Positions 9,541 through 34,512 of a stretch of DNA of 64,000 nt are shown here, piece by piece; position 1 is the stretch's first letter; every line of letters begins with the position of its first letter. The stretch is from Crocinitomicaceae bacterium (GTDB lineage Bacteria; Bacteroidota; Bacteroidia; Flavobacteriales_D; Parvicellaceae), in NCBI GenBank assembly GCA_002723085.1, contig PBNK01000036.1, positions 1-64,000 of the forward strand, given 5' to 3'. The notes beneath the pieces were generated by a model. That model made no database searches and was not told the origin of the DNA. It saw nothing but the letters and a program-made list of their open reading frames with translations. A program made the position numbers and the translations under genes.

Positions 9541-10905
9541 ATGGAATTAAAAAAGAATTTTGTTTTTTATCAATTGAGTAAAAAATTATTTTTTACCCTA
9601 ATTCTGTCTGTGTTTTTAATTCCAAACACGTATTCTCAAACAGGCCAAGAATTATTTAAAAAATGTGCTTCATGTCATCATCCAGTAGTTGATAAGGTTG
9701 GTCCCGCTTTAAAAGGTGCTTTACAAAGATGGAAAGATGCTGGCGAGGAAGAACTTATTTATGAATGGATACAAAATCCATCTAAACTTTACAACAGCGG
9801 TAAATCCAAAAGAGCTAAAGAGGTTTGGGATTATGATCCATCTGTAATGAATGCTCAAGCATTATCTAAAGATGAAATTAAGTTAGTTCTTGAATATGTT
9901 GATAGTTATGAAGATGTTGCTCCTGCTGATTCTGCTTCTATGGGCGATGAAGTTGCATATGAAAAGCCTGATGATTCTGTTTCCTTTTGGTGGTGGGTGT
10001 TTGCAGGTGTTCTTATAATAGTACTTTTTGCGACAATGGGCGTCAGGCGCGAACTTAATTCTGCTCTTGAAGAAAAGAGTGGTATCGAAGTAGATACAAA
10101 AAGAACTTTTTTAACAAGTGCTCATGAATGGGCAATTCGAAATTGGTTTGTAATGGTTTTGTTAATCATTTCTGTCGCTATTTTTTCTGGTGTTGAATTA
10201 ATGGGTCGAGGTTTTCAAGTTGGCGTTTATCAAGATTATATGCCTTCTCAACCAATTGCATATTCTCATAAACTCCATGCAGGTCAAATGGAAATTGATT
10301 GTAAATATTGTCATAATTCTGCTGAAAAATCAAAGCATGCTGGAATACCATCTGTAAATGTATGCATGAATTGTCACAATCAAATTCACGAAGGAGCTCA
10401 ATATGGCACTCAAGAAATTAGCAAAATTCATACTGCAGCTGGATATGACAAATCATCTAAAACATATAATTTGGATGAATATGGTCAAAGAATTGAAAAT
10501 CCTATAGTTTGGAATAAAGCACACAATTTACCTGATCATGTCTTTTTTAGTCATGCTCAGCATGTACATCCAAATACGGCCAACATAGATTGTAGACAAT
10601 GTCATGGACATGTCGAGACATACACTCTTGGTAGGGTTTCAACTATTGATGAAGTAAATGCATTTGCAGATACTGATGAAGGAAAAGAAAGAAAGATTAT
10701 TAAATTAACTAAACCATTACTCACTATGGGTTGGTGTATTGAATGCCATAATGAAAAAGAAGTTGATTTAACAAGACCTGGATATTACGAAGAAATACAT
10801 AACAGATTAAAGAAAAAACCAAGTCTTCATAATATGATTTATGAAGATGAAAAAGTAACACCAAAAGAACTTGGCGGTTGGGAATGTGCAAAATGTCATT
10901 ATTAG
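9541..10905 (+). CDS. actA: Alternative complex III subunit ActA, multiheme cytochrome c
   Basis: A 454-residue cytochrome of the menaquinol:electron-acceptor oxidoreductase ACIII. There are six CxxCH heme sites, with first cysteines at residues 42, 254, 275, 351, 399 and 449. The first belongs to an N-terminal class I cytochrome c-like domain after a signal peptide (residues 14-32); two membrane spans follow (about 149-167 and 201-220); the other five form the pentaheme domain typical of ActA, facing the periplasm. The extra N-terminal heme domain is a point to compare with other ActA proteins. It is the first gene of the act-cox operon and is 14 bases from actB. Confidence 0.93.
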   Translation: MELKKNFVFYQLSKKLFFTLILSVFLIPNTYSQTGQELFKKCASCHHPVVDKVGPALKGALQRWKDAGEEELIYEWIQNPSKLYNSGKSKRAKEVWDYDPSVMNAQALSKDEIKLVLEYVDSYEDVAPADSASMGDEVAYEKPDDSVSFWWWVFAGVLIIVLFATMGVRRELNSALEEKSGIEVDTKRTFLTSAHEWAIRNWFVMVLLIISVAIFSGVELMGRGFQVGVYQDYMPSQPIAYSHKLHAGQMEIDCKYCHNSAEKSKHAGIPSVNVCMNCHNQIHEGAQYGTQEISKIHTAAGYDKSSKTYNLDEYGQRIENPIVWNKAHNLPDHVFFSHAQHVHPNTANIDCRQCHGHVETYTLGRVSTIDEVNAFADTDEGKERKIIKLTKPLLTMGWCIECHNEKEVDLTRPGYYEEIHNRLKKKPSLHNMIYEDEKVTPKELGGWECAKCHY

Positions 10906-13900: not shown

Positions 13901-14243
13901 TAATCCTGATGTCGTGGTTAGATCCAGAGGAGTTATGGAAAAATGTAGCTTTTGCATTCAAAGTATTCAAGAAGCAAAACTTAAAGCAAAGAAAGAAAGT
14001 AGAGCTTTGGTTGATGGAGATGTTAAGTGTGCCTGTGGAGATGCTTGTCCAAATGATTGTATTGTATTTGGAGACTGGAATGATCCAAATTCAAAAATTA
14101 GAGAAGTGTCTCAGAACGATAGGGCATACCAAGCATTAGAGGAAGTTGGAGTTGAACCAAACATTTGGTACCAAGTTAAAGTAAGAAATATTGAAGAAGA
14201 AAATGATGTAGCTATAAATGAAAATCATCATAGCGAACATTGA
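10920..14243 (+). CDS. actB: Alternative complex III subunit ActB, molybdopterin-like iron-sulfur protein
   Basis: An 1107-residue periplasmic subunit with a fused architecture: an N-terminal Tat-like lipoprotein signal (GRRDFLKFMGF followed by LASC), a long region related to molybdopterin oxidoreductases but lacking cofactor in known ACIII, and a C-terminal ferredoxin-like part with four Cys clusters. These begin CNGCGVCITAC, CQHCNHAPCETVCP, CIGTRYCANNCPYK, and CSFC with later CACGDACPNDC, consistent with three [4Fe-4S] and one [3Fe-4S] clusters known for the family. It passes electrons from quinol to the cytochrome subunits. It ends with TGA, showing that TGA is used as stop here. Confidence 0.95.
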   Translation: MSTKKTYWKGYSEKNQTPNFVESSQKEFQDHVPVDQFLSSDGVNDLKTGRRDFLKFMGFSVAAATLASCEAPVIKSIPYVNKPEEITPGVANWYSSTFYDGNDFANVLVKSREGRPIWLKGKRDGYTSGGLIPRISTSILNLYNEKRLELPQQNGANSQWDKVDKNIIQELKEINDKNGKVRILSNTIISPSTNSVIKDFIDSSSNNNIKHVQYDAKSYNGIRIAHKNLFGKSVIPSYSFDKASILVSIGADFISNWLLPSKYSCDFSKTRKPENGMSRHYQFESVLSLSGANADYRSQIKPSQEGITASSILAAIKGESFSEVYNESTTEKIRKCAKDLKSNKGKSLVISGSNDPNVQTIVAAINDELNNYGATIDFDKPLHLFQADDSEVNSLIKEIESNEIQALFIYGVNPVYSMPNGEALAEHISKIPLTVSFSEYEDETSSFCKYICPDHNYLESWCDHEPISGHVSLQQPIIRPLYNTRQAQESLLVWAGIGERKNAESQLFYDYIIDFWTKNNLVNNQEDWNWAVHNGFTNRVISLAKEQVETINETNESKSNNTLVSFSLNDAFEAVQVNAEKSSDWEFTIYQNELGLGNHAANPWLQELPDSITKVVWDNYITMSPSDCYELFSINSNDPKAAWDGIHLGQEEPAFVAIIKANDIVLKLPVYPLPGQTKGTVGISFGYGRGGKINEKTIFDIGNAAFQCDEKGEHLVDANGGLIPIGANAFKLSSFVGNNLSYNGNAEISLTNEKYPLATTQTHHTIMGRTSIVKETTFDFWQKNSNNPESYNPIVKLHSHKQGGHEENPATDFSLWEEHPVKEVGHRWGMSIDLSSCNGCGVCITACHSENNVPVVGKDEVRRARDMHWLRMDRYFSSIEDDNRESYDKSNSKIGESFDYGKLEVPEDNPSVAFMPMLCQHCNHAPCETVCPVAATTHSNEGLNMMTYNRCIGTRYCANNCPYKVRRFNWFNYRDYKKFKNVNPNQDQMARLVLNPDVVVRSRGVMEKCSFCIQSIQEAKLKAKKESRALVDGDVKCACGDACPNDCIVFGDWNDPNSKIREVSQNDRAYQALEEVGVEPNIWYQVKVRNIEEENDVAINENHHSEH

Positions 14244-14260
14244 TATAATAAATTAATATA

Positions 14261-15670
14261 ATGCATAAAGAAGCAGACATAAGATTACCGCTCATCCTTG
14301 GAGATAAAACTTACAAGGATATTACGGATGATGTTATAAAGCCTATTGAAAGTAAAGCACCAAAAACATGGTATTTATTATTCATGATATCTGTTGTTAT
14401 TGGTTTATGGGGCATTGGATGCATTGTTTATCTTCTTGGTACCGGAGTTGGAACATGGGGGCTTAATAAAACTGTTGGTTGGGCATGGGACATCACAAAC
14501 TTTGTTTGGTGGGTAGGAATTGGTCATGCAGGAACTCTTATTTCTGCAGTACTTTTATTGTTCCGTCAAAAATGGAGATTTGCAATTAATAGGGCTGCTG
14601 AAGCAATGACCATATTTGCTGTAATGATGGCTGGATTATTTCCTTTGATTCACATGGGAAGACTTTGGTTAGGGTATTGGGTTTTTCCTTTGCCTAATCA
14701 ATTTGGATCTTTATGGCCGAATTTTAATTCACCTTTATTATGGGACGTATTTGCCATATCTACTTACTTCTCTGTATCTCTTGTTTTTTGGTACATAGGG
14801 CTTATCCCTGATTTTGCAACAATTAGAGACCGAGTATCAAAACCAATATTTAAAAAAGTATATAGGGTTTTAAGTTTTGGTTGGACAGGTGATGCTAAGG
14901 CGTGGAATAGATTTGAATTGGTCTCCTTGGTTTTGGCAGGTTTAGCTACACCATTAGTATTCTCAGTTCACTCAATTGTATCATTTGATTTTGCTACATC
15001 TGTCATTCCTGGATGGCACACAACTATATTTCCACCATACTTTGTTTCTGGTGCTGTATTTTCTGGTTTTGCAATGGTGCAAACGTTGATGTTAATTTTA
15101 AGAAAGGCATATAAGCTTGAGGCCTACCTTCATGTTAAACACATTGAATACATGAATATTGTAATTATTGTGACAGGATCTATTGTAGGAGTTGCTTATA
15201 TAACAGAACTTTTTGTTTCTTGGTATTCTGGAGTTGAATATGAAGCATACGCCTTTTTAAACAGAGCAACTGGACCCTATTGGTGGGCTTATTGGAGTAT
15301 GATGACATGTAATGTTATTTCCCCTCAACTTTTTTGGTTTAAGAAACTTAGAACTAGTCTAATGTTTTCTTTTTTTATGTCTATAATCATCAATATTGGA
15401 ATGTGGTTTGAACGTTTTGTAATAATAGTAACTTCATTACACAGAGATTATTTGCCATCTTCTTGGACTTATTTTCACCCAACTTGGGTTGATATTGGGG
15501 TATATATGGGAACAATGGGTCTTTTCTTCACGTTGTATTTGTTGTTTTCAAGATATTTTCCAGTACTTCCAATAGCGGAATTAAAAACCATATTAAAAAG
15601 TTCTGGAAAAAATTATAAAGAAGGTTATGGCCACGGTGAGGGTTATTGGCAAAAACACACCGAACATTAA
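14261..15670 (+). CDS. actC: Alternative complex III subunit ActC, NrfD-like quinol-binding membrane protein
   Basis: A 469-residue polytopic membrane protein with about ten hydrophobic spans, of the NrfD/PsrC family. In ACIII it binds menaquinol and together with ActF spans the inner membrane. Conserved-looking features include the loop WDITNFVWWVGIGHAGT early in the protein and the span-flanking NRFELVSLVLAG. The start MHKEADIRLPLILGDKTY fits the family. It lies 17 bases after actB and 9 bases before actD in the operon. Length and hydropathy are normal for ActC. Confidence 0.95.
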   Translation: MHKEADIRLPLILGDKTYKDITDDVIKPIESKAPKTWYLLFMISVVIGLWGIGCIVYLLGTGVGTWGLNKTVGWAWDITNFVWWVGIGHAGTLISAVLLLFRQKWRFAINRAAEAMTIFAVMMAGLFPLIHMGRLWLGYWVFPLPNQFGSLWPNFNSPLLWDVFAISTYFSVSLVFWYIGLIPDFATIRDRVSKPIFKKVYRVLSFGWTGDAKAWNRFELVSLVLAGLATPLVFSVHSIVSFDFATSVIPGWHTTIFPPYFVSGAVFSGFAMVQTLMLILRKAYKLEAYLHVKHIEYMNIVIIVTGSIVGVAYITELFVSWYSGVEYEAYAFLNRATGPYWWAYWSMMTCNVISPQLFWFKKLRTSLMFSFFMSIIINIGMWFERFVIIVTSLHRDYLPSSWTYFHPTWVDIGVYMGTMGLFFTLYLLFSRYFPVLPIAELKTILKSSGKNYKEGYGHGEGYWQKHTEH

Positions 15671-16968: not shown

Positions 16969-18666
16969 ATGGAGTATAAAATATCTGATAAAGCAAAAAA
17001 ATTCACCTTAGGGTTAGCAATTGTAGGAATAGTGTTGCTTGTGATTGGGTTTTTTCAACAAAAAGATTTTGTTTATGCTGAGCTAATTGATGATGAATCT
17101 GTAAAGATTTTTTATAATGGACATGCAGGGGAGGAAGAACAGGCTAAATTAGAAGAGTCTATTAAAGAAAAAATGAGTGACTATGAATTAGACTTTGTTA
17201 AAAATCATGATCACTCACAACATGAGAATGAACATGCTAATGACCATTCATCTACTCACACTAACCATGACGCTGAATCAGATCATTTAACTGTTGATGA
17301 AAACCACGATGAATCATCAGACGATCATGTTGGACATCATGGCCCTACATTTGTATGGGAAGTGCATGTAAAATCATCAAATCATGACAAAAATCACAGT
17401 GAAGAGCATAATGTTTCAGACCATTCTTCAAATGAACAATCAACTCATAATGTTGATTTAGATCAACATTCTTCTAATAATGGTCATCATGGTGATGCAC
17501 ACCACAATACTAAATCTGGATCTGAAGTTTTAACCGAAATGATAAATAACAGAGAAATCTCTTTTTTTGATTCGGGTTTGCGAAGATTTTGGTCTAATCT
17601 TCTTATTAATGGGTTTTTCTTTTTTGGAATCGCATTAGGAGCATTATTTTATTTAGCACTTCATTACGCAACTGAGTCTGGTTGGGGAGTGGTTCTATTA
17701 CGTATTTTTGAAGGGATAATGTCTGCAATGCCAATAGGAATGGCAGTTTTATTATTGGTTTTTATTGTAGGTACTTTTGAAGGACATCATATTTACCCTT
17801 GGATGGATTCTAATATTGTTGATCCAGATTCACATTCTTTTGACCCAATTATATATGGGAAAACAGCCTATTTAAATAAACCATTCTTTTGGATTAGGGT
17901 TTTAGCTTATTTTGCTACTTTCTTCTTGTTCCTAAGGTGGTTTAAGAAAAAATCAAGACAAGAAGATGCTGAAGGTGGAACAGCAACTCATTTCAAAATG
18001 TACAGAAGAGCCGCATTGTTTTTAGTTTTCTTTGCTGTTTTTTCTTCCACTATGTCTTGGGATTTTATTATGTCTATTGATACCCACTGGTACAGCACTC
18101 TATTTGGCTGGTATGTCTTTTCTGGAATTTGGCTAAGTGGAATGATTATGGTAATGATGATTACTCTTTACTTAAGATCTCAAGGGCATTTGCCATTTGT
18201 AAAAGAAAGTCATATTCATGATGTCGGGAAATGGATGTTTGCATTAAGTTTCTTATGGAGTTATTTATGGTTCTCACAATTCATGTTAATATGGTACGCT
18301 AATATACCTGAAGAAGTTAAATATTTTGTTGACAGAATTCAAGATTATAAATTGTTATTTTTCGGTACATTTGTCGTGAATTTTGTATTTCCAATGGTTT
18401 TCTTAATGTCTGCTGACACTAAAAGATCTGCTGGATATTTAATAGTTATAGGGTTAATAATTTTCATAGGACATTGGTTTGATGTTTATACTATGGTTAT
18501 ACCAGGAACTTTATTTGATCAATGGGAATTTGGATTACTTGAAATTGGAATGTTTATGTTGTTTTTAGGAACATTTGTCTATACGGTTTTAAGAGCTATT
18601 TCAAAAGCTCCATTGATACAAAAGAATCATCCTTATTTAGAGGAAAGTAAACACCACGAATTTTAA
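16969..18666 (+). CDS. actF: Alternative complex III subunit ActF with a histidine-rich insert
   Basis: A 565-residue membrane protein. From about residue 205 on it has roughly ten membrane spans and matches the ActF/NrfD-like subunit that pairs with ActC. Ahead of this is an unusual N-terminal part: one span at residues 13-29 preceded by Lys residues (so the following loop should be periplasmic), then an acidic, strongly His-rich region at residues 80-179 with about 23 His and many Asp, Glu, Asn and Ser. Such a stretch could bind Cu or Zn. The insert is in frame and within the operon. Its function is not known; metal binding is inferred only from composition. Confidence 0.92.
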   Translation: MEYKISDKAKKFTLGLAIVGIVLLVIGFFQQKDFVYAELIDDESVKIFYNGHAGEEEQAKLEESIKEKMSDYELDFVKNHDHSQHENEHANDHSSTHTNHDAESDHLTVDENHDESSDDHVGHHGPTFVWEVHVKSSNHDKNHSEEHNVSDHSSNEQSTHNVDLDQHSSNNGHHGDAHHNTKSGSEVLTEMINNREISFFDSGLRRFWSNLLINGFFFFGIALGALFYLALHYATESGWGVVLLRIFEGIMSAMPIGMAVLLLVFIVGTFEGHHIYPWMDSNIVDPDSHSFDPIIYGKTAYLNKPFFWIRVLAYFATFFLFLRWFKKKSRQEDAEGGTATHFKMYRRAALFLVFFAVFSSTMSWDFIMSIDTHWYSTLFGWYVFSGIWLSGMIMVMMITLYLRSQGHLPFVKESHIHDVGKWMFALSFLWSYLWFSQFMLIWYANIPEEVKYFVDRIQDYKLLFFGTFVVNFVFPMVFLMSADTKRSAGYLIVIGLIIFIGHWFDVYTMVIPGTLFDQWEFGLLEIGMFMLFLGTFVYTVLRAISKAPLIQKNHPYLEESKHHEF

Positions 18667-18686: not shown

Positions 18687-20513
18687 ATGGGAGGTAAGTT
18701 TATTATAATTATTGTTGTTGCTCTTTTTTTCATAGCTTTTATTCAGCTAATGAAAATTTATCAATTAGCTGATAAAGTTAGAGGGCAAAAATCTCAAGAA
18801 AAGATAACTCGTAATGAAAACATGATGATGGCTAACTTGATGTTAGTTTTTATGTGTTTATTTTTTGGCTTTACCATTTGGTTAATTTTTAAGTATGGTG
18901 CCAACTCTGGTTTATATGAAGCAGCTACTGTTCATGGAAAAGAAATAGATGATTTACTTATGTTTAACTGGTACATAATTTTACCTGTATTTTTCATAAC
19001 AAATTTTTTATTGTTTTTCTTTTCATGGAAGTACTATCACAGAGAAGAAAGAAAAGCTACATTCATATCTCATAACAATAAATTAGAATTTTTCTGGACA
19101 GTAATCCCAGCTATTGCCTTATCATTCATTGTTATTTATGGAATAAAAACTTGGAACAGCATAATGTATAATACAGAAGAAGGTCAGGTTGTTGAAATAT
19201 ATGCCTACCAATTTGGTTGGAGAGTTAGGTATGCAGGCGAAGACAATATTTTAGGAAAAGCAGATTACAAACTTGTAAGTACAACTAATCCCTTAGGAGT
19301 AATTACTGATAAAAATATAAAAGCGACTTACGCTGAAATTGATGCTGAAGTTAGATCTATCGATTCCATTTTAAATGCAAATATAGATCCAGTTACAGGA
19401 GATTATTTATTGCCAAAATCTAAAGTAACTAAACATAAAGAAAAGCAGGAAAGATTAAAAAGAAGAAAGTACAGGATTAAGTCTGGAATTGACAAAGGGC
19501 CATTAAACGATAGCATCTATGCTGCTGCTAATGATGATTTTGAAGATGATTTGGAATTAAGATTAATTAAAGACCAACCTTACACTTTTAAAATTAGATC
19601 TCAAGATGTCATTCATTGCCCTTGGTTTCCTCATTTTAGAGCTCAAATTAATGCTGTTCCTGGAATGGAAACCAACTTTAAGTTGACTCCGACAACAACC
19701 ACTGCTGAAATGCGTGAAAAACCTGAAGTTATTGAACATTACAATAATTTGTATGATAGACATCAACAAAGAATAGAGGAATATAATATAGTTGAAACAG
19801 AGCCTTTTACTGGGTTATTTGATTATGTTTTATTATGTAATAAAATTTGTGGTGCTGGACATTCAAACATGCAGATGAAAGTTGTTGTTGAAACTCAAGA
19901 GGAATATGATTATAATGTTACTTTCAAGAAAAGTGAAAAGAAAATTATTCAAAGCAAAATTGCTGATTTTGAAAGTAAATTAATCTCTTTTGAAGAAGGT
20001 GACAATTCCGGAACAGATTCAATATCTTTAGTTTGTAGAGGAGAAGTTGATTTAGTTAAAGAAGAACTTAAAACATTTTCTGAATTTCAAGATAAAGACC
20101 TAAATAATCTAAAGGAAGAAATAAAATTAAGTTTAAAGGTTGAGCACGAAATAAAAGTTATAAATGAAGAATCTAATTCTGATTTAAGCGTAAAGCAAAA
20201 CCTTAGTAGATTAGTTGATAATTCTAGTATTTTAAATAAAGAAGAAATCTATAATTACATTTCATCTACAAATGATGAAAGTCTAAAAAATGAAGCGGTT
20301 AATTACTTTCAAGAAATTGTTCAAAATTCTCTGAATACATTTTCCAATAATTTAAATGATTTTAAAGTGAAATTCGAGTTAAAATCCAATGAAATTCAAA
20401 ACAAAATAAACACGCTTGTTAAACAAGAATTGAATCAAAATGAAGAAAATCGTTTAACCTTATCTGCTGAAAATACCAGTTCAAATACAACAAATGATAA
20501 AGTAACAATGTAA
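18687..20513 (+). CDS. coxB: Cytochrome c oxidase subunit II with long C-terminal extension
   Basis: A 608-residue CuA-binding subunit of the aa3-type oxidase. Hydrophobic spans lie near residues 4-22, 48-70, 97-116 and 134-152. The cupredoxin domain carries CuA ligands H310, C384, C388, H392 and M395 (segment CNKICGAGHSNMQM). Residues about 205-300 form an insertion inside the periplasmic domain, rich in charged residues. After residue 410, where the family normally ends, an extra 200 residues follow, highly charged and coiled-coil-like (many Glu, Lys, Asn, Leu). The extension has the same base composition as its neighbours. It lies between actF and coxA. Confidence 0.93.
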   Translation: MGGKFIIIIVVALFFIAFIQLMKIYQLADKVRGQKSQEKITRNENMMMANLMLVFMCLFFGFTIWLIFKYGANSGLYEAATVHGKEIDDLLMFNWYIILPVFFITNFLLFFFSWKYYHREERKATFISHNNKLEFFWTVIPAIALSFIVIYGIKTWNSIMYNTEEGQVVEIYAYQFGWRVRYAGEDNILGKADYKLVSTTNPLGVITDKNIKATYAEIDAEVRSIDSILNANIDPVTGDYLLPKSKVTKHKEKQERLKRRKYRIKSGIDKGPLNDSIYAAANDDFEDDLELRLIKDQPYTFKIRSQDVIHCPWFPHFRAQINAVPGMETNFKLTPTTTTAEMREKPEVIEHYNNLYDRHQQRIEEYNIVETEPFTGLFDYVLLCNKICGAGHSNMQMKVVVETQEEYDYNVTFKKSEKKIIQSKIADFESKLISFEEGDNSGTDSISLVCRGEVDLVKEELKTFSEFQDKDLNNLKEEIKLSLKVEHEIKVINEESNSDLSVKQNLSRLVDNSSILNKEEIYNYISSTNDESLKNEAVNYFQEIVQNSLNTFSNNLNDFKVKFELKSNEIQNKINTLVKQELNQNEENRLTLSAENTSSNTTNDKVTM

Positions 20514-20532: not shown

Positions 20533-22296
20533 ATGTCACACGATACACATCATCATAAGGAAAGTTTTATTAGTAAATATATATTTAGTCATGATCATAA
20601 AATGATTGCTAAACAATATCTTCTAACTGCTATTTTTATGGGGGCAATTGGGATTACTTTGTCTGCCCTATTCAGATTAAAATTAGGATGGCCTGATGAT
20701 AAATTCCCTATATTGGAAACCTTGTTAGGGTCTGATGCCGCCCCAGAAGGATTACTTAATAGCAATTGGTATTTAGGCCTTGTTACACTTCATGGAACAA
20801 TAATGGTTTTCTTTGTTTTGACTGGGGGTCTATCGGGAACTTTTTCTAACCTTTTAATACCTCTTCAAGTTGGAGCTAGAGATATGGCATCTGGCTTATT
20901 AAATATGATTGCTTATTGGTTATTCTTTATTTCAAGTGCTTTAATGGCAGTTTCATTATTTATTGAAACTGGTCCAGCAATGGCTGGTTGGACAATTTAC
21001 CCCCCTTTAAGCGTCCTCGAAGAGTTTCAATCAGGATCTGGTTTAGGAATGACATTATGGTTGTTATCCATGACTTTTTTCATTGCCTCGTCTTTAATTG
21101 GAGGTATAAATTATATAGTCACAATACTAAATCTAAGAACTAAAGGAATGAGCATGACTAAACTTCCTTTAACAATATGGGCATTTTTTATAACTGCAAT
21201 CCTTGGTGTTCTTTCATTTCCAGTACTTTTGTCATGTGCTGTATTGCTTTTAATGGATAGAGGCCTTGGAACAAGTTTTTATATGAGTGATATAATTGGC
21301 CCTGAATCTGGAGCTTTAGATGCAACAGGAGGAAACCCAATATTATATGAACATTTATTTTGGTTTTTAGGGCACCCTGAAGTTTATATAATTTTACTTC
21401 CAGCATTAGGAATGACATCCGAAATTATTTCTACCTGTTCTAGAAAACCAATTTTTGGGTACAGAGCAATGATAGGCTCAATGTTAGCCATTGGTTTCTT
21501 GTCATTTATTGTTTGGGGTCACCATATGTTTTTAACTGGTATGAATCCTTTTCTAGGAGGAGTTTTTACATTTACCACTTTACTAATTGCAATTCCATCT
21601 GCAGTTAAAGCTTTTAATTACATCACCACTATATATAAAGGAAATGTAATCATGACACCAGCCATGTTATTTTGTATAGGGTCAGTTTCAACGTTTATCT
21701 CAGGTGGTGTAACAGGTATTATCTTAGCAGATTCTGCTCTTGATATCTCACAACACGACACTTATTTTGTAGTAGGACACTTTCATATTGTAATGGGAAT
21801 GACTGCGATTTTAGGAATGTTTGCTGGTATATATCATTGGTTTCCTAAAATGTATGGAAAAATGATGAATAAAAGAATGGGTATGGTCCATTTTTGGGCA
21901 ACCATAGTATGTGGATATGGTGTATTTATTCCGATGCATTTCCTAGGTGAGGGTGGATTACCAAGAAGATATTATGAAAATACTAATTTCCCAATGTTTG
22001 ATCATTTTCTTGATTTAAATGTTATGATTTCTATATTCGCTACTGTTGGTGTAATAGCTCAAGTGATCTTCTTTATGAATTTTTTCTACAGCATATTTAG
22101 AGGTCCTGTAGCTTCACTTAACCCTTGGAAATCTAATTCTTTAGAGTGGACAACTCCAGTAGAACACGTTCATGGCAATTGGCCTGGAGAAATTCCTACT
22201 GTCCACAGATGGCCTTACGATTACAGTAAGCCAGGAAAAGAAGAAGATTTTGTCCCTCAGCACATACCACTTACAGATGATGAGGAAGAGCATTAA
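20533..22296 (+). CDS. coxA: Cytochrome c oxidase subunit I
   Basis: A 587-residue heme-copper oxidase catalytic subunit that reduces O2 to water. Conserved ligands are visible: heme a His at 87 (LHGTIM) and 418, CuB His at 281 (GHPEVY, with Tyr285 for the His-Tyr link), 330 and 331 (WGHHMF), and heme a3 His at 416 (VVGHFH). Glu283 and the K-channel Lys359 (SAVKAFNY) are present, so it looks like a type A proton-pumping aa3 enzyme. The N-terminus is His-rich (MSHDTHHHKE). No subunit III gene follows; the operon terminator is 20 bases downstream. Confidence 0.97.
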   Translation: MSHDTHHHKESFISKYIFSHDHKMIAKQYLLTAIFMGAIGITLSALFRLKLGWPDDKFPILETLLGSDAAPEGLLNSNWYLGLVTLHGTIMVFFVLTGGLSGTFSNLLIPLQVGARDMASGLLNMIAYWLFFISSALMAVSLFIETGPAMAGWTIYPPLSVLEEFQSGSGLGMTLWLLSMTFFIASSLIGGINYIVTILNLRTKGMSMTKLPLTIWAFFITAILGVLSFPVLLSCAVLLLMDRGLGTSFYMSDIIGPESGALDATGGNPILYEHLFWFLGHPEVYIILLPALGMTSEIISTCSRKPIFGYRAMIGSMLAIGFLSFIVWGHHMFLTGMNPFLGGVFTFTTLLIAIPSAVKAFNYITTIYKGNVIMTPAMLFCIGSVSTFISGGVTGIILADSALDISQHDTYFVVGHFHIVMGMTAILGMFAGIYHWFPKMYGKMMNKRMGMVHFWATIVCGYGVFIPMHFLGEGGLPRRYYENTNFPMFDHFLDLNVMISIFATVGVIAQVIFFMNFFYSIFRGPVASLNPWKSNSLEWTTPVEHVHGNWPGEIPTVHRWPYDYSKPGKEEDFVPQHIPLTDDEEEH

Positions 22297-31822: not shown

Positions 31823-32601
31823 TGGAAGCACATCCAACTGCAAACATTCATCCTGATGCTAAAATTGGCAAAAATGTGGTTATCGAGCCTTTTGCTACAA
31901 TTTATGCTGATGTGGTTATAGGAGAAGGAACTTGGGTAGGTCCAAATGCTGTTATTTTTGATGGGGCTAGAATAGGAGATAATTGTAAAATTTATCCTGG
32001 TGCAATAATATCTGCAACTTCTCAAGACTTAAAATATAATGGTGAGTACACAACTACTGAAATTGGAAATAATACAGTTATAAGAGAATTCGTAACTATT
32101 CATAAAGGAACAACTGATCGACACAAAACAAAAATTGGAAGCAATTGTTTATTAATGGCTTATGTTCATATTGCTCATGATTGCATTGTAGGAGATAATG
32201 TTATAATTGCAAATCTTGTTCAAATTGCTGGACATGTAACTATAGGGAATTGGGTAATTATTGAAGGAACTGCAGCTATTCAACAATTCGTTCATGTTGG
32301 AGATCATGTTTTTGTGGCTGGCGGTTCATTAGTAAGAAAAAATATTCCTCCTTATGTCAAAGCAGCTAGAGAACCATTATCATATGTTGGAGTAAATACT
32401 ATTGGTCTTAGAAGAAGAGGATTTAGCGATCAGCAAATTATGAATGTGGAAGACATATATAGAGTCATTTATGTTCAAAACAGCAACATAACTACAGCTC
32501 TTAAAGTAGCCGAGTTAGAACTGCCTCAAACTGAGGAAAAATCTACAATCTTAGATTTTATAAGAAGCTCTACAAAAGGAATCATGAGAGGATTAAGTTA
32601 A
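31822..32601 (+). CDS. lpxA: UDP-N-acetylglucosamine acyltransferase LpxA
   Basis: A 259-residue acyltransferase for the first step of lipid A synthesis. It starts with [20 protein letters not shown], the usual LpxA start, followed by hexapeptide repeats forming a left-handed beta-helix. The catalytic His lies in LLMAYVHIAHDCIVGDN. The C-terminal helical domain begins near GLRRRGFSDQQI. Length is normal. It is the last gene of the lpx operon and converges on the Omp28-like gene, overlapping its stop by 4 bases. Confidence 0.96.
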   Translation: MEAHPTANIHPDAKIGKNVVIEPFATIYADVVIGEGTWVGPNAVIFDGARIGDNCKIYPGAIISATSQDLKYNGEYTTTEIGNNTVIREFVTIHKGTTDRHKTKIGSNCLLMAYVHIAHDCIVGDNVIIANLVQIAGHVTIGNWVIIEGTAAIQQFVHVGDHVFVAGGSLVRKNIPPYVKAAREPLSYVGVNTIGLRRRGFSDQQIMNVEDIYRVIYVQNSNITTALKVAELELPQTEEKSTILDFIRSSTKGIMRGLS

Positions 32602-33542
32602 TCTAATTCCAATTTTGTGACTTGAATCACTTCAAAAGAATTTCTTTCACATATGTAAGCAATAAGAGAAAGATTACTTATATCATATGTTGAATCAAAA
32701 TTTGGATCAGGCAATTCAATGGAATAGTCATTGTAAAATTTGGTGCCACTAGATACATCTCCTGAAGAAAGAAGTGTCCCCCATGTCCCATTAACGTTAT
32801 CTGAAAGCACAGAATGATGATTGTAATTGGGGTCTATTAAATTTGTAGTTCCTCCAATAAATTGAGAAGCAATAACACTTTCTCTAACTAAATAAATTAT
32901 TAAGTTATAATCACCTGATAAATTAGATTTAAACTCAGATTCAACATGAATAAAAAGACCATTAGTAGATGGAAAGTAATTTGATTGCAATTGAATATTA
33001 GCTAATAAGTCAGAATTTTGCTCTTGATTAACATAAGTAGGCCACTCAGATGTTGCAAACCAAACATCGTTTTCTGGATCTAAAGGATTGGGTTTTCTAT
33101 TTATTGTGCCTATTGGATTAGCAGGAAACCCTGGCATATCTACGATATATACGTCACCAGCATTGGTTGTGAAATCTGTAATAAATCCCATTGCAGAGTC
33201 AAGGTGTTGAAATGCATCGACATCACAAGCATGAATACTAACTACTATAACGCCTAACGAAGAGTCATTTTCTAAAAGTAAAGCATCTTCAGCAGCAGCA
33301 GGGCAACTGCCACATTTGTGGCCTGTATAGTCTTCTAAAAGAATATGGGTTTTAGTATTCATATTGGTTGACCAGTTGCTGGAAGGATCCTCAAAACTAT
33401 ACAAAGCTAAATAGTTGTTAGAGTCACCAGGGTATAAACTCCAATTAAGATCTCCAAAAACTGGAGGAATAGGGTTTTCAGTTTTATCACATCCAATTAA
33501 TCCAAGGAACAAAATAATTAATATGAGGATGGGTTTTTTCAA
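32598..33542 (-). CDS. Omp28-like thioredoxin-fold lipoprotein, copy B
   Basis: A 314-residue lipoprotein with signal and lipobox LIGC (Cys18). A thioredoxin-like segment contains the CxxC motif C77-G-S-C80 in EDYTGHKCGSCPAAAE, the hallmark of Omp28-related outer-membrane proteins. The remainder is beta-rich with a jelly-roll appearance. It is a close paralogue of the next gene: the lipobox and CxxC are at identical positions and much of the protein is alignable. Function is unknown; the CxxC suggests a redox or metal-binding role. It is probably the last gene of the operon that starts with the TlpA-like gene. Confidence 0.85.
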   Translation of the reverse strand: MKKPILILIILFLGLIGCDKTENPIPPVFGDLNWSLYPGDSNNYLALYSFEDPSSNWSTNMNTKTHILLEDYTGHKCGSCPAAAEDALLLENDSSLGVIVVSIHACDVDAFQHLDSAMGFITDFTTNAGDVYIVDMPGFPANPIGTINRKPNPLDPENDVWFATSEWPTYVNQEQNSDLLANIQLQSNYFPSTNGLFIHVESEFKSNLSGDYNLIIYLVRESVIASQFIGGTTNLIDPNYNHHSVLSDNVNGTWGTLLSSGDVSSGTKFYNDYSIELPDPNFDSTYDISNLSLIAYICERNSFEVIQVTKLELD

Positions 33543-33585
33543 TATAATATATTTAACTCAGGTTAATGACAAGGAAAAATTAAAA

Positions 33586-34512
33586 TTAATCTAACTCAGT
33601 TTTCGTAACCTGAATTATTTTAAAAGTATTTCTTTCACATAAATAAGTAACTAGAGAAAGGTTGTTTATTTCATATGTTGAATCAATATTAGGAGAAGGC
33701 AATTCAACTGAAAAGTCATTATAATACTTTGATCCACTATTAACACTTCCTGATGAAATTAATGAACCCCATGTTCCATTTATATTGTCAGACAGAACAG
33801 AATGATGGTGATAATGATGGTCTATTGAACCGTCCCCCATTTTTTGTGGTGCAATAACAGATTCTCTAATTAAATAAAGGATTAAATGATAATCACCTGA
33901 TAAATTGTCCTTAAATTCAGTTTCAGTATGAATAAACAAACCATTTGTAGATGGAAAGTGATTTGCCTGAACTTGAATATTAGCTAATAAACTAGCACTG
34001 GTTTCAGTATTAACAGTGTTTACCCAAGAACTTGAAGCGTGCCAAACAGTGTTATTTGCTCCTGTTGGATTTCTGTTAATTGTTCCCAATGGATTAGCAA
34101 ACATTCCAGGCATATCTACAACATAAACATCTCCTGCTTCAGTAGTAAAGTCAGTGATAAATTCACTATCAGTTTCTTGAAACGCTCCTCCTGCTCCAGC
34201 ATGAACGGAAACCAATATTACATTTAATGAAGTATCATCTTCTAATTGTTTAGCAATAACTGCAGCTGCTGGACAATTGGTGCATTTGTGCCCTGTATAA
34301 TCTTCTAAAAGAATGTGTTTTTTAGTATTGTTATTAGTACTCCAATTCGTTTCAGGATTATCAAAATTATATAATGAAAGGTAGTCATTAGAATCGCCAG
34401 GATATAGGCTCCAGTCTACATCTCCAAAAACTGGTGGTATAGGGTTTTCAATTTTATCACAACTAAAAAGTCCGAAAATTATAAAAATAAGTATGTAAAA
34501 ATAATTCTTCAT
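33586..34512 (-). CDS. Omp28-like thioredoxin-fold lipoprotein, copy A
   Basis: A 308-residue lipoprotein with lipobox LFSC (Cys18) and the thioredoxin-like CxxC motif C77-T-N-C80 in EDYTGHKCTNCPAAAV. It shares with copy B a near-identical N-terminal mature region (NPIPPVFGD, WSLYPGDSN) and the C-terminal part, so the pair arose by tandem duplication; the dipeptide between the cysteines differs (TN versus GS), which usually changes redox potential. It begins 2 bases after the stop of the beta-barrel gene, so it is co-transcribed with it. Function unknown. Confidence 0.85.
   Translation of the reverse strand: MKNYFYILIFIIFGLFSCDKIENPIPPVFGDVDWSLYPGDSNDYLSLYNFDNPETNWSTNNNTKKHILLEDYTGHKCTNCPAAAVIAKQLEDDTSLNVILVSVHAGAGGAFQETDSEFITDFTTEAGDVYVVDMPGMFANPLGTINRNPTGANNTVWHASSSWVNTVNTETSASLLANIQVQANHFPSTNGLFIHTETEFKDNLSGDYHLILYLIRESVIAPQKMGDGSIDHHYHHHSVLSDNINGTWGSLISSGSVNSGSKYYNDFSVELPSPNIDSTYEINNLSLVTYLCERNTFKIIQVTKTELD

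Follow-up and report, generated by a model that had tools for sequence, protein, structure and literature searches.

The first loop between membrane helices of ActF, an NrfD-like membrane subunit of alternative complex III, is long and rich in histidine in the window (the whole 64,000-nucleotide stretch of DNA analysed here), and such loops occur at every locus obtained from the window's family. This insert is best read as a lineage-specific elaboration of the periplasmic TM1–TM2 loop of ActF, outside the core fold, and the preferential retention of its His residues between close relatives suggests a role in metal or proton handling. The explanation favoured here, tentatively and with slightly less than even confidence, is that the elaboration consists of a platform and His-rich arms that reversibly bind divalent metal as a local buffer. 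ActF itself is a known subunit; the His-rich loop variant, with its putative function, is new.

ActF and its gene cluster

The ActF gene occupies positions 16969..18663 of the forward (+) strand and encodes 565 aa, and its assignment follows from homology and gene order. The protein is the ActF of alternative complex III, as determined by sequence and fold matches to solved ActF subunits: the solved Flavobacterium johnsoniae subunit (6btm_F) is matched at E 1.1e-103 by sequence (phmmer) and at E 6.9e-23 by the predicted model (Foldseek), although ActF itself matched no Pfam or NCBIfam model at E 0.001. Within the act cluster, the genes start in the order ActA (9541), ActB (10920), ActC (14261), ActD (15680), and ActE (16213), where the letters ActA, ActB, ActC, and ActE were assigned from order and domain content. 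Directly 3′ of ActF are two oxidase genes on the same strand: COX2 (18687-20513; Pfam COX2_TM), in which the CuA-type motif C-x3-C-x3-H-x2-M was picked out by eye, and COX1 (20533-22296; Pfam COX1).

Several further features of the window were observed in passing. COX2 has apparent extra sequence between its transmembrane hairpin and the CuA-type motif, and after the motif a C-terminal extension of approximately 200 aa (residues 405-608) that is rich in Glu, Asn, and Lys and contains a single His. ActA (9541-10902) begins with a cytochrome c domain (Pfam match 33-122) followed by a membrane span, in agreement with the extra domain that passages of two papers describe for F. johnsoniae ActA (PMC5928083, PMC8552683). 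Short His clusters lie at the ends of subunits: NENHHSEH at the C-terminus of ActB (14220-14240), QKHTEH at that of ActC (15650-15667), ESKHHEF at that of ActF (18643-18663), of which H562 and H563 are invariant in a 23-sequence alignment, and MSHDTHHHKESF at the N-terminus of COX1 (20533-20570). On the reverse strand, two neighbouring lipoprotein-like genes (32598-34512) resemble each other and carry CxxC patterns (CGSCP, CTNCP); they are perhaps a tandem duplication.

Composition, topology, and predicted fold of the loop

Residues 80-179 of ActF (17206-17505) contain 23 His, 13 Asp, 11 Asn, 9 Glu, and 15 Ser, a count that bears out what the sequence-only reading had reported, namely about 23 His amid many Asp, Glu, and Asn. 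The His content is approximately ten times the background, which is 2.1% in the window's open reading frames of at least 100 aa; the next richest 100-aa stretch in any of these frames has 12 His, and the binomial probability of at least 23 His per 100 residues at 2.1% is 2e-17. Met and Cys are both absent from residues 78-181. The whole TM1–TM2 loop spans 166 aa with 14.5% His, and the window protein thus belongs to the His-rich-loop variant of Bacteroidia ActF, defined in this analysis by a TM1–TM2 loop of at least 20 aa with at least 10% His. The His residues fall into two arms, 12 in residues 80-126 and 10 in residues 139-180, separated by a predicted strand with one His. Elsewhere in the operon, hydrophilic stretches taken as periplasmic are poor in His (1/204 residues in the COX2 tail and 1/38 in the ActE tail). 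Chance composition was rejected on the binomial probability together with the His-richness of all 54 long loops and the His retention described below, and slippage of a repeat was discarded as the sole cause, as the repeat found at 17219-17247 is weak, with a 12-base unit in only 2.4 copies.

TM1 corresponds to residues 7-29 (16987..17055, +), which form a helix in the AlphaFold model and whose N-terminus is placed in the cytoplasm by homology; hydropathy likewise gives one strong hydrophobic span (residues 8-36) before the His-rich stretch. The ActF of Rhodothermus marinus is described, in a passage of PMC5928083, as having ten helices and both termini in the cytoplasm. The His-rich TM1–TM2 loop should therefore lie in the periplasm, where the sequence-only reading had also put it. 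That reading had further placed the stretch directly after the first membrane span; it does follow this span, but approximately 50 residues of predicted β-β-α-β structure with one His (H52) intervene.

The AlphaFold run on an alignment of 23 sequences (mean pLDDT 70) divides the loop, on the + strand, into ordered and disordered parts. Briefly, strands 36-41 and 44-49, helix 55-68, and strand 72-78 (17074..17202; block pLDDT 71-86) form the first half of a predicted periplasmic platform; the first arm (residues 80-126, 17206..17346; 12 His in 47 residues) is predicted to be disordered (pLDDT <50); a predicted strand at 128-136 (FVWEVHVKS; 17350..17376) closes the platform; the second arm (residues 139-180, 17383..17508; 10 His in 42 residues) is again predicted to be disordered (pLDDT <50); and a predicted short helix at 184-193 (17518..17547) is followed, according to the model and the alignment, by an EISFFD-like stretch and TM2 (205-235). 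From this order of strands and helices and the disorder between them, what the sequence-only reading had called an insert is predicted to be two disordered His-rich arms on a small ββ-α-β-β-α platform. The same order of elements was obtained when the domain of a compact relative (L046) was modelled alone, with pLDDT 78-88 in its ordered blocks. Seventeen sequences, the window's included, show no variation in the columns of Y49, G51, F128, W130, and H133; upon addition of five more divergent family members most of this invariance is lost, with one platform column remaining fully invariant and two nearly so.

The predicted arrangement of the platform is a common one. Among the matches listed, Foldseek gave none that was significant (E 0.001 or better), and VIA-align gave Z scores of at most 5.7, its matches including domains of the ribosomal S6, H-NOX, ACT-like, and gyrase types. 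In a Pfam search with the 17 domain sequences at E up to 5, the few matches were weak and each came from a single member (best E 0.027); a PDB profile search returned none at E up to 10.

Distribution among relatives and conservation of histidine

In the window's family (f1), 33 of 39 genomes were matched and 30 gave a locus, the window included; a further locus (L050), whose ActF is split over two frames, was not counted. All 30 have a TM1–TM2 loop of 101-220 aa with 11.2-18.6% His, and the insert is thus common among close relatives, a point that the sequence-only reading had proposed to check. Beyond the family, 20 loci were chosen from 236 matching genomes of the order, 60 from 108 of the class, and 15 were taken from 27 matching genomes of other classes of the phylum; the choice was usually one or two loci per family, but all six of a second family of the order (f13) and some others were picked for their long frames, and the proportions of long loops given here therefore do not represent frequencies. 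His-rich loops of 91-243 aa are present in 6/6 loci of f13, one of them cut by the contig end, whereas the other 14 of the 20 order loci have loops of 8-14 aa. Among the class loci, 18/60, in 14 families, have loops of at least 20 aa, all with at least 12% His, and 42/60 have shorter ones; in a family whose ActF is like that of F. johnsoniae (f65), 5/5 loci have loops of 53-121 aa at 13-15% His. In the other classes of the phylum, all 15 loci have loops of 4-6 aa, three of them with one His, and this agrees with the earlier statement that the loop is no core element of ActF.

Across the sampled Bacteroidia loci, loop length ranges from 4 to 243 aa. The 113 distinct loops, counted with omission of L031-L050 (mostly copies of family loci), L055 and L056 (truncated), and L058-L087 (copies), comprise 54 of at least 20 aa and 59 short ones. 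All 54 long loops contain 10-22% His (median 14.3%, vs. a core median of 3.6%), and 46 of the 59 short loops contain at least one His; overall, the long loops have 14.3% His, 20.4% Asp plus Glu, 0.1% Cys, and 1.6% Met. A quick tree of the ActF core (134 rows) shows eight changes between the long and the short state, at least four of them on starred branches. As to a common origin of the f1 and f13 platforms, profile comparison gave a probability of 10.7% (E 0.0029) across 37 columns that follow the corresponding order. In one locus (L042:7001-8857; the same protein is found in L014), the loop reaches 220 aa and 41 His, seemingly through the repetition of units.

Retention of His was scored by match or mismatch only, which gives His no favour. 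In the His-rich neighbourhoods of 19 close pairs, 360/403 His (89%) are kept, compared with 882/1325 (67%) for Asp, Glu, Asn, Gln, Ser, Thr, Gly, Ala, and Lys together; Glu is kept at 81% and Lys at 75%, and Asp and Asn, whose codons are two-fold like those of His, at approximately 50%. Over a wider set of 67 pairs, the figures are 71% for His vs. 47% for other hydrophilic residues. Four ungapped pairs of equal length gave 90% vs. 75%, with Gly (98%) and Lys (91%, n=11) equalling or exceeding His. An earlier test with BLOSUM62 gave 86% vs. 51%; the flat scoring is preferred because BLOSUM62 favours the alignment of His to His. Kept His pairs differ silently in 46/180 cases in the close set and 4/42 in the ungapped set, and two-fold codons of the ActF core do so in 1809/6033 cases in the wider set. 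As the pairs are not independent, these percentages indicate the direction of the effect rather than its exact significance. Since His is kept above its hydrophilic neighbours in close relatives, the His residues of the ActF loop appear to be under selection; the outcome that the sequence-only reading had named as damaging, a common insert of random composition, is at odds with this retention (89% vs. 67%) and with the at least 10% His of all 54 long loops.

The spacing of His was compared with shuffled sequences in 29 representatives, a version used because relatedness inflates spacing statistics. HH (z -3.6) and HxH (z -3.1) are depleted, whereas HxxH (z +2.1), HxxxH (z +2.9), and a spacing of 10 (z +2.7) are enriched. 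HxHxH strings are the pattern of many zinc proteins, and the depletion of HH and HxH therefore sets the loop His apart from such strings. ZnuA was considered as a calibrator of His spacing and was of no use, because its stretches contain few His: a 30-mer with eight His occurs in 1/14 loci (L198), and the others have two to four.

Possible functions and comparison with known systems

In the favoured explanation, a ferredoxin-like ββ-α-β-β-α platform at the membrane surface would carry two disordered arms rich in His, Asp, and Glu, which would reversibly bind divalent metal, most likely Zn and possibly Cu(II) or Ni. The arms would thereby hold metal locally and with low affinity, as a buffer or sink on the periplasmic side of alternative complex III, close to the complex's haem and copper partners, and would not be a copper donor dedicated to the neighbouring oxidase. 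The metal is assigned by analogy with PA4063, described below; this likeness is the reason for favouring reversible binding of divalent metal, with proton buffering ranked next. Also in favour are the His content of the loop and its spread over f1, f13, f65, and 6btm_F, the retention of His, the eight changes of loop state on the tree, and the low His content of the COX2 and ActE tails. Against it count the depletion of HH and HxH, the retention of Gly and Lys and the few silent differences in the ungapped pairs, the loss of most platform invariance upon addition of divergent members, and the platform's lack of a significant Foldseek or convincing Pfam match; a combination of His with acidic residues would be favoured by proton buffering as well. 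No metal measurement was found.

A proton buffer or antenna, in which His and acidic side chains take up or give off protons on the periplasmic side, to which quinol oxidation and the oxidase deliver protons, is unlikely but is the nearest rival. The long loops are rich in both His and acidic residues, retained His outside classical chelating spacing would fit a titratable brush, and a periplasmic proton half-channel has been proposed for ActF in a passage of PMC5928083; nevertheless, many Bacteroidia ActF do with loops of less than 20 aa (the 42/60 class loci above), and pure buffering offers no obvious reason for the depletion of HH and HxH. It is still less probable that the loop is a flexible charged tether or a docking element for a supercomplex or cytochrome, with His incidental. 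The widely varying loop length, the fast drift of the non-His sequence, and the internally repeated look of the L042 loop would all suit such a spacer, but in both of the larger sets of pairs His is retained better than its hydrophilic neighbours, and it is enriched in every one of the long loops, across many families. A neutral and functionless low-complexity expansion is the least credible of the explanations: indels are tolerated and the weak repeat at 17219-17247 points in this direction, whereas the retention of His alongside silent change, the His-richness of all 54 long loops, and the conservation of platform columns in most of the family argue against it.

The sequence-only reading had proposed that the loop may hold Cu or Zn and supply copper to the CuA/CuB centres of the oxidase encoded downstream, or else buffer metal at the supercomplex. 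The genes share an operon, the oxidase has a CuA-type motif, and His-rich sequences can bind Cu(II). However, COX2 adjoins actF in 44/54 long-loop and 57/78 short-loop loci, without association (Fisher P 0.30), and short-loop relatives carry the same oxidase genes; 14 of the 21 short-loop loci without COX2 belong to other classes, so that the short-loop figure within the class alone is 57/64. Ten long-loop loci have no adjacent COX2, neighbouring genes only being considered. L031-L050 and L058-L087 were omitted from this count, the truncated L055 and L056 were removed from the cell of long loops with COX2 (46 to 44), and two loci had too little downstream sequence; the test has low power, as the independent pairs number only four (starred branches) to eight (best tree). 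Furthermore, SCO was found in 20/20 genomes, 13 of the window's family and seven of the order's other families, in which the loop was measured as long in 12/13 and short in 5/7, respectively. Met and Cys are the usual Cu(I) ligands, and residues 78-181 lack the ligands of this type that would be expected of a copper chaperone. In the low-resolution supercomplex of R. marinus, the oxidase was fitted beside ActC with ActF peripheral, although a different architecture is reported for F. johnsoniae (both from passages of PMC5928083). Copper delivery is accordingly not supported as the main explanation, on the grounds of COX2, SCO, and the missing Met and Cys, and is regarded as very unlikely, marginally ahead of neutral expansion; the milder half of the proposal, buffering of metal at the supercomplex, may still apply.

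A broader extension of the metal-buffer explanation, doubtful but worth stating, is that many Bacteroidia alternative complexes III double as periplasmic metal-handling stations, in which ActF has repeatedly gained His-rich arms, set on a PA4063-like platform in two of the order's families, and the complex itself buffers or passes on Zn or Cu outside the inner membrane. ZnuA-type proteins (PF01297) were found in none of 24 genomes (18 of f1, two of which also lack an ActF match, and six of f13), as compared with 14/56 others of the order above the cut-off; this might hint that the arms stand in for part of zinc handling, and the comparison is confounded by ancestry and incomplete genomes.

ActF is a second NrfD-like subunit of the complex, and in the R. 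marinus structure it has neither a quinone site nor a cofactor close by, according to a passage of PMC5928083. A His-rich periplasmic element on ActF, with His seemingly selected, is testable in F. johnsoniae, in which act genes can be deleted: PMC8552683 describes the deletion and complementation of actA and actE, and its Strep-tag preparation contained 1 mM EDTA. A literature search that extended to papers other than the main F. johnsoniae structure paper, which may mention the loop, found none joining alternative complex III with His-rich or histidine-rich sequences, and the available portions of PMC5928083, PMC8076601, and PMC8552683 make no mention of the loop.

SCO and other copper chaperones of oxidases act on the periplasmic side near the oxidase, a location that the ActF loop would share; SCO1-SenC, however, is encoded by a separate gene in the 20 genomes above, and the loop is devoid of Cys and Met. 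A closer likeness is offered by PA4063 of Pseudomonas aeruginosa, a noncanonical ferredoxin-like periplasmic protein that has two zinc sites of micromolar affinity and two His-rich sequences without order in the apo protein, the first of these joining strands 3 and 4 and the second at the N-terminus (described in parts of PMC8561739), and by the similar ZrgA of Vibrio cholerae (parts of PMC9820375). The ActF platform would likewise be ferredoxin-like, with the same local order of elements up to that loop, and its first predicted disordered arm also links strands 3 and 4. By contrast, PA4063 and ZrgA are standalone periplasmic proteins with further C-terminal strands and a disulphide, whereas the ActF loop is part of a membrane subunit, and their second His-rich stretch is N-terminal, whereas that of ActF follows strand 4. 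Neither protein is among the matches listed from Foldseek and VIA-align, and the Pfam search with 17 domain sequences (E up to 5) gave no zinc-protein match, the Pfam name of the ZrgA model being unconfirmed; the likeness, known from the fold description, would be one of working, with common descent no more than a possibility.

Among solved complexes, the same core fold is found in the ActF of R. marinus, Chloroflexus aurantiacus, and Roseiflexus castenholzii (6f0k, 8k9e/9ilt, and 6lod; TM-score on target 0.82-0.84), whose chains of 411-417 aa, matched from residues 38-59 onward, consequently leave no room for a loop of the window's size. The ActF of F. johnsoniae (6btm chain F) is the same subunit with a His-rich TM1–TM2 loop of similar composition; its loop, of approximately 78 aa as judged from a look-alike (L138), does not contain the strand-helix-strand motifs seen in f1. 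Its sequence has 464 aa and the structure-library chain 402 residues, so approximately 62 residues seem to be unmodelled, and these would mostly be the His-rich loop.
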